NCBI RefSeq assembly: GCF_000018425.1
Contig: NC_010424.1
Location: 1,442,501 to 1,506,500 of the forward strand
Source: Candidatus Desulforudis audaxviator MP104C
GTDB lineage: Bacteria; Bacillota; Desulfotomaculia; Desulfotomaculales; Desulforudaceae
Direction of reading: 5' to 3'
DNA: 64,000 bases
Shown here piece after piece: positions 56,973-60,942 of this stretch (its first letter is position 1; every line of letters starts with the position of its first letter). Under the pieces are notes generated by a model that was not told the origin of the DNA, made no database searches, and saw only the letters and a program-made list of their open reading frames with translations. Position numbers and translations under genes: made by a program.

Positions 56973-57629
56973 TTAGTTCAGCTCTTTCCATTCTCCGGTG
57001 ACCAGGTAGATTACTTCCTCACCAATGTTCGTCGCCCGATCCGCCAGGCGTTCCAGGTGGCGGGCGACCATGAGAAGGTACACCACGCAGGGGATGGTGT
57101 GGGGATTTTCTTCCATGTAGGTAATCAGATCCTGAAAGGTCAGGTTGTAGATTTCGTCCACGTCGTCGTCCATGAGGCACATCTGCCGGGCCTTCTCCAC
57201 ATCGCCATGCACGTAGGCATCCATGCCGTCCTTGACCATATGCTGGACGAGCCGCGCCATCCGGGGAATTTTCTCCAATGGCTTGGCGGGCATCCGCCCG
57301 CAAACGCACATCGCCGCCCGGGCGATATCCACGGCGTGATCGCCCATCCGTTCCAGGTTGATCAGGATTTTGATGCCGGTGACAATCACCCTGAGGTCCC
57401 GGGCCATCGGCTGCTGGGTCGCGATCAGCCGGATGCACCGGTTTTCGGTTTCGTACCGCATCCGGTCGATGGCGTCGTCCCCGGTGATAACGTCCCTGGC
57501 GATCAGTGGATCCTGTTTCAAGAGCGCCTCGAGGGCGTTGAAAATGCTCTGCTCGACCAGGCTGGCCATGCGCAGGATGTCGCGTTTAAGATCACTCAAT
57601 TCAGCGTCAAAAGCGCGCCGATGGGACAA
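56973..57629 (-). CDS. phoU: Phosphate signalling protein PhoU
   Basis: Couples the Pst transporter to the PhoR kinase. It consists of two PhoU three-helix repeats with the metal-binding ERMGDHAVDIA (about 90-100) and HLERLADRATNIGEEV (about 192-207) motifs. I prefer the TTG at 57629, 6 nt after GGGGTG, giving 218 aa beginning MSHRRAFDAEL; the open frame extends to 57656. It is kept here although the pst permease genes are lost upstream. Confidence 0.92.
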   Translation of the reverse strand: MSHRRAFDAELSDLKRDILRMASLVEQSIFNALEALLKQDPLIARDVITGDDAIDRMRYETENRCIRLIATQQPMARDLRVIVTGIKILINLERMGDHAVDIARAAMCVCGRMPAKPLEKIPRMARLVQHMVKDGMDAYVHGDVEKARQMCLMDDDVDEIYNLTFQDLITYMEENPHTIPCVVYLLMVARHLERLADRATNIGEEVIYLVTGEWKELN

Positions 57630-57736
57630 CGGGATCACCCCAAGCTCAATTAACAAAGTAATTGGTCAAGTATAATAAGCATTGTATTAATGTATCATAT
57701 GAATACTGAAAGGGCAAGAACTACTTGCTCAGCGGC

Positions 57737-58492
57737 TCAGCCGAAACGCCCGGTGACGTAGTCTTCCGTCCGTTTGTCTTTGGGTTTGGTGAACAGCTTA
57801 TCGGTGACCCCGCATTCCACTACTTCTCCGTTCAGGAAGAAAGCGGTAATATCTGACACCCGAGCCGCCTGCTGCATGTTGTGGGTGACGATGATAATCG
57901 TGTAATTCTTCTTCAGTTCCTGAAGCAACTCCTCGATCTTCAGCGTCGAAATCGGGTCCAGAGCCGAGCTGGGCTCGTCCATCAACAGCACCTCCGGCTC
58001 CACCGCCAGCAGCCGGGCGATGCACAGCCGCTGTTGCTGCCCGCCCGAAAGCCCCAGCGCAGAGCGGAACAGGCGGTCACGGACCTCGTCCCAGAGGGCC
58101 GCGTCCCGTAGGCTGCGTTCCACGATCTCGTCGAGCCGCTGCTTGTTTTTCAAACCGTGAATCCGCGGTCCGTAGGCAACGTTGTCGTATACTGACATCG
58201 GGAAGGGGTTAGGCCGCTGGAACACCATCCCGACCCGCTTGCGGAGCTGCACCACGTCAACCTCCGGTCCAATGATATTCTGACCGTCAAGTAGCACTTC
58301 TCCCGACACCCGCACCCCTTCAATGAGGTCGTTCATCCGGTTCAAGACCCGCAGGAAAGTGCTCTTGCCACAGCCGGACGGCCCGATGAGCGCGGTGATC
58401 CGCCGCTCCGGAACGTCCATGCTGATGTCGGTCAGGGCTTGAAAATCTCCGTAGTGCAGGTTCAGGTTCCGGATCACGATCTTGTTCTCCAT
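57737..58492 (-). CDS. pstB: Phosphate ABC transporter ATPase PstB
   Basis: A 251-aa ABC ATPase with Walker [31 protein letters not shown] (PstB hallmark), signature [15 protein letters not shown], Walker [14 protein letters not shown] and H-loop [11 protein letters not shown]. It appears intact, yet the permease upstream is a pseudogene. Unless a second pst set exists elsewhere, it has no local partner. Confidence 0.94.
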
Positions 58493-58507
58493 CCGTCTTT
58501 CGTCCTC

Positions 58508-58819
58508 CTAAGTTCTTGCCGAAAAGGCGCTTCTGGTAGATGCGCGCCGGAACCCGGTCATCAGGTTGAAAGCCGGCACCATGAACACCGGGAGGGCCGC
58601 GGTCCCGGCCGCGATTTCATTGGCATCGGGCCGGAGTCCTTCGGCCCGGACGTACTAGAGGTGAACCGCGAGTGTCTCTCCGGCCAAGAAGGGAAAGTGC
58701 CGCGACATGCTGACCCCGGCGGTGTAGACTAAAGGCAGTATCGCGGTTGAACCAACGGCGGTCACCGGACACGGAAAGCAGGAAAACAATGATCAAACCA
58801 GCAGCTTCTTAATCGGCAC
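58508..58819 (-). pseudogene. pstA: Collapsed pst operon: pstA C-terminal remnant (possibly with a pstS start)
   Basis: From 58762 to the TAG at 58508 the frame reads TAILPLVYTAGVSMSRHFPF then LAGETLAVHL, a TAG at 58655-58657, then YVRAEGLRPDANEIAAGTAA, the recognisable end of PstA. Directly upstream, a GTG at 58819 starts MPIKKLLV, and one frame over LIIVFLLSVSG follows, looking like a PstS signal peptide. So pstS, pstC and most of pstA appear to be deleted, with later point lesions. It lies between the PHO box and pstB. Confidence 0.82.
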
Positions 58820-58860
58820 CGCCTTCAGACAATCTCCCCCAGCATAGTCTAGCACGTCTG

Positions 58861-58899
58861 TGTTAGTTAAATGTTAAGCTAGTATTAAGGCAATGTTAA
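58861..58899 (-). promoter_or_regulatory. PHO box (four PhoP-type direct repeats)
   Basis: On the minus strand TTAACA (58894-58899), TTAATA (58883-58888), TTAACA (58872-58877) and CTAACA (58861-58866) recur every 11 bp exactly, the spacing of Gram-positive PhoP boxes (TTWACA). A possible -10 (TATGCT or TAGACT) follows about 15 bp on. It would drive the remnant, pstB and phoU. Confidence 0.85.
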
Positions 58900-58915
58900 A
58901 GCGAGTACCGGCCCT

Positions 58916-60250
58916 CTAGGCCGGCAGAAACATAGAAAAGGTTGTGCCCTTGCCGGGCTTGCTCATCACCCGTATTCTGCCGCCGTGACCCTCGACGATG
59001 TGTTTGACGATCGCCAGCCCCAGACCGGTGCCGCCCTGGGTACGGGCCTTGTCTCCCCGGAAGAAACGCTCGAAGATCCGGGGCAGGTGTTCCGGCGCGA
59101 TCCCGGCGCCGGTATCCAACACTTCCACTTCCACCCCGCCCTCGGCCGCCGCGGCCCGGATGGTGATCTCGCCTTTTTCGGTGAATTTCACGGCGTTATC
59201 CAGCAGGTTGATGAACATCTGGGTCAAAAGCTTCTGGTCCCCGATGACCGGAGGTAGCCCGTCAGCGAGTTCCACCCGAAGCGCCACGCCTTTTTGCCGG
59301 GCGCGGGAGGCAAACGTGTCCACCGCCCGCTGCACGACCCCCGGCAATTCCACCGGCAACCGGCCGAACATGTTCCGCCGTTCCTCGATGGTGGCCAGTT
59401 TCAGCAGGTCGTCGACCAGTTCGGTCAGCCGGTCGGTTTCCTCCTCAATGATGCCCAGAAAACGGCGCGCCGTTTCCGGCTCGTTTATTGCGCCGTCCCT
59501 CAGCGCCTCAATGAACCCCCGAATGGAAGTCAGGGGCGTGCGCAGCTCGTGCGAGGCGTTGGCCACGAATTCGGTGCGCATCTGCTCCAGCTGACGGCGT
59601 TCGGTGATGTCCCGGAACAGAGCCACCACGCCGCCCTGGGGTCCGCGGAGCGGGGTCAGGTGCACCCGGAAAATGCGCGGCTCCGGTGTCAGGATCCGCA
59701 ACTCCTGCTTCAGGGGCCGGCCGGAATCGAGAGCCTGGCGGAAGAGCCGGTCCAGTTCGTAGTCCCGGACCACCTCCAGCACCGTTCGGCCGAGGCTCGC
59801 TTCCTCGTTCAGGCCGAAAGCTTCTTCCACCACCGGGTTGATCAGGATCACCCGGGTCTCACGGTCGACGGCGATCACCCCGTCCGCCATGCTGTCCAGA
59901 ATGGCCTGCATCCGGTTTTTCTCGTCGGTCACCAGGCTCAGCGTGCCCCGCAGGCGCTGGGCCATCTGGTTGAAGCTCTGGGCCAGCTTGCCGACTTCGT
60001 CGCCCTCGTACACCCGGATGGTTTTGTTCAGATCACCCTCCGCGATCTTCTCGGCCGTTTCGGCCACCTTGGAAAGCGGCAGACTGATGAACCGGGGAGC
60101 GAGGACGGCCATCGCCGCGGCGATCAGGATCCCTAGGGCCATCGCCGCTCCCGTGATGAGGAGGCCGGCGGCGGAAAGCGCCCACAGGAACATTATGGCG
60201 GCCGCCAGCAGCAGCAGGCTGAAAACCACCTGGTTCTGCATCCGTCTCAT
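58916..60250 (-). CDS. phoR: PhoR-type sensor histidine kinase
   Basis: A 444-aa kinase with two adjacent membrane segments (about 8-50) and no large outer domain. They are followed by a HAMP domain (about 52-105), a PAS domain (about 110-215, ILDSMADGVIAVDRE), HisKA with NASHELRTPLTS (phospho-His) and HATPase_c with INLLDNAVKFTEKG, DTGAGIAPEH and GTGLGLAIVKHIVEGHGG. The lack of a sensor loop fits control through PhoU/Pst. It overlaps the regulator gene by ATGA. Confidence 0.92.
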   Translation of the reverse strand: MRRMQNQVVFSLLLLAAAIMFLWALSAAGLLITGAAMALGILIAAAMAVLAPRFISLPLSKVAETAEKIAEGDLNKTIRVYEGDEVGKLAQSFNQMAQRLRGTLSLVTDEKNRMQAILDSMADGVIAVDRETRVILINPVVEEAFGLNEEASLGRTVLEVVRDYELDRLFRQALDSGRPLKQELRILTPEPRIFRVHLTPLRGPQGGVVALFRDITERRQLEQMRTEFVANASHELRTPLTSIRGFIEALRDGAINEPETARRFLGIIEEETDRLTELVDDLLKLATIEERRNMFGRLPVELPGVVQRAVDTFASRARQKGVALRVELADGLPPVIGDQKLLTQMFINLLDNAVKFTEKGEITIRAAAAEGGVEVEVLDTGAGIAPEHLPRIFERFFRGDKARTQGGTGLGLAIVKHIVEGHGGRIRVMSKPGKGTTFSMFLPA

Positions 60251-60942
60251 TCGCTCAACTCCCGGAAACGGTAGCCGACTCCGCGCACCGTTTCAATGTA
60301 CTGGGGGCTTCCGGGCAGCCGCTGCAGCTTTTGCCGCACGTGACGGATATGCACGTCTACAGTGCGGGAATCCCCCGTATAATCATAGCCCCAGACCTTC
60401 TGGAGCAGCAATTCGCGGGAGAAAACCCGGCCGGGGCTCCCGGCCAATACCCACAATAACTCGAATTCGGTGGGCGTCAGTTGCTCCCGCTTTCCCGCCG
60501 CCTCCACCGCCAGGCGCTCCGGATCGACCACCAGGTCGCCGAACCGGGCCGTCTTCCGCGCCTCCTGTACCGGGACGTGACGGCGCAGCCGCGCTTTGAC
60601 CCGCGCGACCAATTCCCGGACGCTGAACGGCTTGGTAATATAGTCGTCCGCGCCCAGTTCCAGGCCGAGCACGCGGTCCAGCTCCTGACCCCGGGCGCTG
60701 AGGATGATTACCGGGATATCCCGGGTGCGCTCGTTCTGGCGCAACAGGCGGCAGACGGTCAGGCCGTCCAGCCCGGGCAGCATAATGTCCAGGACCACCA
60801 GGTCGATCCGCCCGGTGTGGACCATTTCCAACGCCCGGTCGCCGTCGTTGGCCTCCACTACTTGAAAGCCCTCTTTCTCGAGGCCGTACCGCATCAGCTC
60901 GACAATGTGTTTTTCGTCCTCAACCACCAGAATCCTTGCCAT
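60247..60942 (-). CDS. phoP: PhoP/PhoB-type response regulator
   Basis: A 231-aa OmpR-family regulator. The receiver has acidic VVEDEKH, phospho-acceptor Asp in LVVLDIMLPGLDG, and Lys in YITKPFSVRELVARV. The C-terminal winged helix ends in WGYDYTGDSRTVDVHIRHVR. It is expected to bind the PHO box at 58861-58899. It precedes phoR with a 4-bp overlap. Confidence 0.93.
   Translation of the reverse strand: MARILVVEDEKHIVELMRYGLEKEGFQVVEANDGDRALEMVHTGRIDLVVLDIMLPGLDGLTVCRLLRQNERTRDIPVIILSARGQELDRVLGLELGADDYITKPFSVRELVARVKARLRRHVPVQEARKTARFGDLVVDPERLAVEAAGKREQLTPTEFELLWVLAGSPGRVFSRELLLQKVWGYDYTGDSRTVDVHIRHVRQKLQRLPGSPQYIETVRGVGYRFRELSE

Follow-up and report, generated by a model that had tools for sequence, protein, structure and literature searches.

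The closest described relative of the phosphate genes of Candidatus Desulforudis audaxviator MP104C is the PstSCAB-PhoU system of the E. coli / B. subtilis type, with which they share all subunits and PhoU, in family-typical form, and PHO-box control. They differ from it in lying at two loci, pstB-phoU with phoPR and pstCA-S elsewhere, and in keeping a relic of another pstSCA before pstB. Mycobacterium tuberculosis has an orphan ATPase gene, phoT, and a pstS3-pstC2-pstA1 operon; the review describing them, in the part available, calls the combining of the parts unclear (PMC7761784). The arrangement resembles ours in that a permease operon lacks an ATPase gene and the ATPase gene is found elsewhere, and it is a precedent for split Pst genes. 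However, M. tuberculosis also has a full pstS1C1A2B operon, whereas the D. audaxviator pstB is the only one and lies beside phoPR-phoU. Streptococcus pneumoniae is described, in the sections available, as having two distinct Pst transporters, Pst1 and Pst2, in two operons (PMC4913102); by contrast, two relatives of D. audaxviator (G003 and G005) combine two permease sets with a single PstB, and in D. audaxviator itself the one permease set is separated from PstB. The titles and abstract openings of the matches listed for pstB/Desulfotomaculum, D. audaxviator/phosphate and orphan or unlinked pstB do not describe this arrangement, and neither phosphate nor pst occurs in the available main text of the MP104C paper (PMC5385130).

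The window (the 64,000-nucleotide stretch of the MP104C genome analysed here, to whose positions coordinates refer unless stated otherwise) carries on its minus strand, in order, phoP, phoR, a PHO box, the relic, pstB and phoU (together locus A). The response regulator gene phoP (60247–60942) and the phoR/pnpS-type sensor kinase gene (58916–60250) are syntenic in family members; their best or near-best profile matches are of the phosphate type, yet fall below the NCBIfam equivalog cut-offs [best match of PhoP: TIGR02154 PhoB, 258.9 bits, cut-off 296.2; sensor kinase: NF046044 PnpS, 396.5 bits, cut-off 400]. The PHO box (58861–58899, minus strand; TTAACA-TTGCC-TTAATA-CTAGC-TTAACA-TTTAA-CTAACA) has four TTAACA-like repeats with an exact 11-bp period and matches four copies of TTAACA at 22 of 24 positions; shuffling the 426-bp gap 300 times never reached this score. 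Tandem repeats of ~6–7 bp with an 11-bp period, as in the Pho regulon, thus lie upstream of pstB. The box is followed by a putative −10 element, TAGACT (58846–58851, minus strand); by eye, TAnnnT occurs at the equivalent position after the box in G001, G002, G003, G005 and G007. No known RNA element is assigned to the leader, 58400–59000 having no Rfam match at E ≤ 0.1. Downstream are the pstB ribosome-binding site AGGAGG (58504–58509), pstB (57737–58492; TIGR00972, 419.8 bits, cut-off 343.2), whose Walker A, LSGGQ and DEP motifs are intact, and phoU (56973–57656; TIGR02135, 218.5 bits, cut-off 130.25), all on the minus strand.

Between box and pstB lies what is left of a pstSCA cluster, compared here with the intact syntenic orthologues of the family member G007 (G003 PstS was also used as a tblastn query). 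The pstS 5′ relic (58718–58825, minus strand) comprises the signal peptide region and the first residues of the mature protein (44% identity to G007 over 43 aa, E = 1e-7). The pstA 3′ relic (58512–58759, minus strand) matches the end of PstA with 68% identity over 73 aa (58553–58759, E = 1e-29) and, in a second frame, with 79% over 14 aa (58512–58553, E = 2e-5); its overlap with the pstS relic is produced by BLAST extension, and the joint lies near 58727. An in-frame amber codon (58655–58657) and a frameshift near 58553, close to the PstA C-terminus, disable the reading frame, ~2.2 kb is missing relative to G007, and nothing of PstC is left between phoR and pstB. Homology to intact syntenic orthologues in G007 and G003 together with the lesions identifies a pstSCA pseudogene. 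The original pstSCA between phoR and pstB would have been deleted and have decayed to a leader, with the promoter and PHO box retained and now presumably driving pstB-phoU directly. The original prediction, made from the window alone, had described the four phased PhoP repeats, a fused remnant of PstS start and PstA end interrupted by an amber codon and a frameshift, intact pstB and phoU behind it and phoR/phoP upstream of the box, and all of this is borne out.

It had further taken the high-affinity permease to be gone, allowing that the organism might use another phosphate system, and had proposed a genome search for a second pstSCA or a pit gene. In the genome (2,349,476 bases, a single contig) there is an intact pstC-pstA-phosphodiesterase-pstS cluster at genome positions 2,062,281–2,065,812, minus strand (locus B; stretch L004, 7281–10812). 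Its pstC lies ~564 kb from pstB, and no pstB adjoins the cluster. PstS (TIGR02136, 264.2 bits, cut-off 206.6; a lipobox-like LAGC in the N-terminus), PstC (TIGR02138, 299.8 bits, cut-off 196.45) and PstA (TIGR00974, 288.9 bits, cut-off 193.45) all exceed their NCBIfam cut-offs. All PstSCAB-PhoU components are therefore present above cut-offs; the arrangement in one operon, usual though not essential to the biochemical definition, is absent, and the permease locus lacks an ATPase gene that is found elsewhere. Since pstC, pstA and pstS are intact, loss of the permease is not supported: the local collapse of pstSCA stands, and the hedge about another phosphate system proves right in a specific form. 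Two other PBP_like_2 matches were rejected as PstS, one being TupA-like and the other, by eye, lying inside a LysR-type regulator. The phosphodiesterase between pstA and pstS is YfcE-type (L004, 8327–9049); such a gene occupies this place in D. audaxviator (G000) and in G003–G006 and was undetected there in G001 and G002. A 578-aa transposase-like ORF, which we take to be IS1634-like (L004, 5346–7082, plus strand), ends ~200 bp from the pstS stop.

The two loci are linked by their upstream sequences. A strict scan of the whole 2.35 Mb for four TTAAC repeats with an 11-bp period and at most three mismatches returns four matches at three places only: before pstC (no mismatch, plus an overlapping register), before the relic and pstB (two mismatches) and before pstS (two mismatches). 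The reversed pattern, used as control, has no match in the genome. No locus other than the two Pst halves has a strict four-repeat box, which argues that Pst persists in split form under joint regulation. We consider that locus A supplies the ATPase and the signalling part of a split, jointly regulated Pst importer, with PstB working in trans with the distant permease (probability roughly 0.85), and the phosphate importer is most likely still whole. Locus B encodes a permease of a different Pst type, lacks a pstB and has one PHO box ahead of pstC and another ahead of pstS. When phosphate is limiting, PhoP would turn on both loci, PstB would join PstC-PstA in trans and power import, and PhoU would report the state of the transporter to PhoR, the last step being one described for E. 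coli-type systems.

The distant permease might instead be powered by another, shared ATPase, with PstB serving mainly PhoU-PhoR signalling. Other ABC ATPases exist in the genome, where 26 places, the window pstB included, match PstB at E ≤ 0.001, and some Gram-positive sugar importers are known to share an ATPase. We nevertheless judge this highly unlikely. In the search of the organism's own genome the next PstB-like ATPases after the window pstB have 39% and 36% identity; the closest (39%), the one scored against the PstB cut-off, adjoins a TupA-like tungstate protein and reaches 203.5 bits, well below 343.2, and only pstB has a PHO box in common with pstCAS. The window pstB is the one true PstB gene of this genome, and as the sole one available to the distant permease it argues against the original suggestion that PstB was kept for signalling alone. 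The two permease types agree more closely in their EAA (ATPase-docking) loops than over their full length (PstC, 59% vs 48%; PstA, 68% vs 41%), which is what one shared ATPase would require. True loss of the high-affinity permease, leaving PstB and PhoU as a signalling pair only and phosphate to NptA-type Na/Pi transporters, has very little probability. Two such genes (Na_Pi_cotrans; ORFs of 572 and 304 aa) are present; Pit is absent from the genome and was rejected as the replacement importer. Against loss stand the intact pstC, pstA and pstS with PHO boxes of their own and the recurrence of the arrangement in relatives. That an intact pstSCA at locus A was collapsed by faulty assembly or sequencing is barely credible, for although the evidence on the MP104C junction comes from the MP104C assembly and from congeners, the relic has diverged from the intact copies and shows several lesions, and the congeners G001 and G002, assembled independently, also lack pstSCA between phoR and pstB (gaps of 204 and 169 bp).

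Within the family, phoP-phoR-pstSCAB-phoU is intact in three members (G003, G005 and G007). pstSCA is missing at locus A from D. audaxviator, G001 and G002, which form one genus, and from G004 and G006 of a second, sister genus that also contains G007. In a tree built from the four retained proteins the three congeners cluster together (support 1.000), as do G004 and G006 (0.991), which implies at least two separate losses of pstSCA. Because the loss is shared with the congeners, the recent, strain-level decay entertained in the original prediction is rejected. All five genomes with a pstSCA loss have the second permease type. G003 and G005 have both types and a single PstB at E ≤ 1e-60, so that this ATPase must serve both permeases or one of them is idle; G007 (89% complete) has only the first type among the matches listed.

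The two halves may have had different histories. Within the genus of D. audaxviator the locus B proteins are less conserved (PstC 79–81%, PstA 70–72%, PstS 69–74% identity) than PstB (94–95%), and trees of PstC and of joined PstC-PstA-PstS place G001 and G002 with G006, not with D. audaxviator (support 0.93–0.96). Given this greater divergence and the conflict with the locus A tree, simple co-evolution of the halves does not hold; exchange of locus B, or its uneven evolution, is probable. Locus B lies beside the same kor-like genes in D. audaxviator, G001 and G002 (L004, 7281–10812; L080; L081) despite the conflict between trees, and this suggests in-place replacement of the permease or its exchange between genera. 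G002 has a further pstS-C-A-B set on contig C19 (L047, 5445–8502); the match to its pstC is in two pieces, and the contig stops close to the end of pstB. A PhoP-like response regulator (50–55%) is found near locus B in G005, G006 and G008 (L084, 4937–5635; L085, 4314–5000; L086, 8564–9259) and is absent there from D. audaxviator.

PHO-box-like sites occur upstream of both halves in most genomes scanned. Box scans covered 20 regions at locus A and 24 at locus B in relatives, those whose gap or upstream region is bounded by matches. The best site is unreached by 300 shuffles in 17 of the locus A regions, the exceptions being G004 (2/300), G030 (3/300) and G018 (26/300), and in 22 of the locus B regions, the exceptions being G035 (1/300) and G016 (38/300). 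No convincing box is seen at G018 (15/24 matches) or at the G016 pstS site. In G004 the locus A box is mostly eroded (14/24 matches), which shows that this box is not always fully kept.

An automated census of 60 relatives, approximate and made among the matches listed, finds pstB and pstC split only in 31, contiguous only in 12 and mixed in 17; the 12 contiguous genomes speak against a simple split-Pst reading. These counts rest on PstC matches listed to ~E = 6e-28, with adjoining PstA rows omitted, and contig breaks can mimic splitting; the second, broken operon of G002 was not scored as linked, and G049, with PstC and no PstB at the threshold, was scored as mixed. Among the same matches in these relatives, pstB lies within 3 kb of a locus-B-type permease at none of 23 loci. 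Outside the family, all 14 locus A stretches examined have pstB behind phoP and/or phoR with no intervening permease gene. One stretch of G011 (L099) has two different pst permease sets in tandem, the first type 1-like and the second type 2, and no pstB. As a wide control, composed mainly of distant relatives, 80 PstC loci from many phyla were considered; 73 have PstB within 1.5 kb of PstC/PstA among the matches listed. The other seven comprise L115, a permuted locus with pstB-phoU just upstream, five stretches of short length or with an end close to the permease genes (L120, L162, L180, L181 and L186), and L133, with no PstB in the stretch examined.

The split importer of D. audaxviator may be one case of a wider arrangement. 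In much of the order PstB-PhoU beside phoPR could be a shared ATPase-and-sensor hub that powers permeases encoded elsewhere, the hub staying in place as permeases are gained, swapped or lost; we regard this as an even bet. The D. audaxviator family, with members that have type 1 only, both types, or type 2 only with relics, would then display such a swap in progress. For a well-known deep-subsurface bacterium, the finding corrects a natural misreading of the genome, that its phosphate permease has been lost. It is also a natural test case for the interchangeability of the Pst ATPase between permeases and for what keeps the ATPase together with PhoU and PhoPR; these may form a sensing unit, leaving the transport genes free to move.
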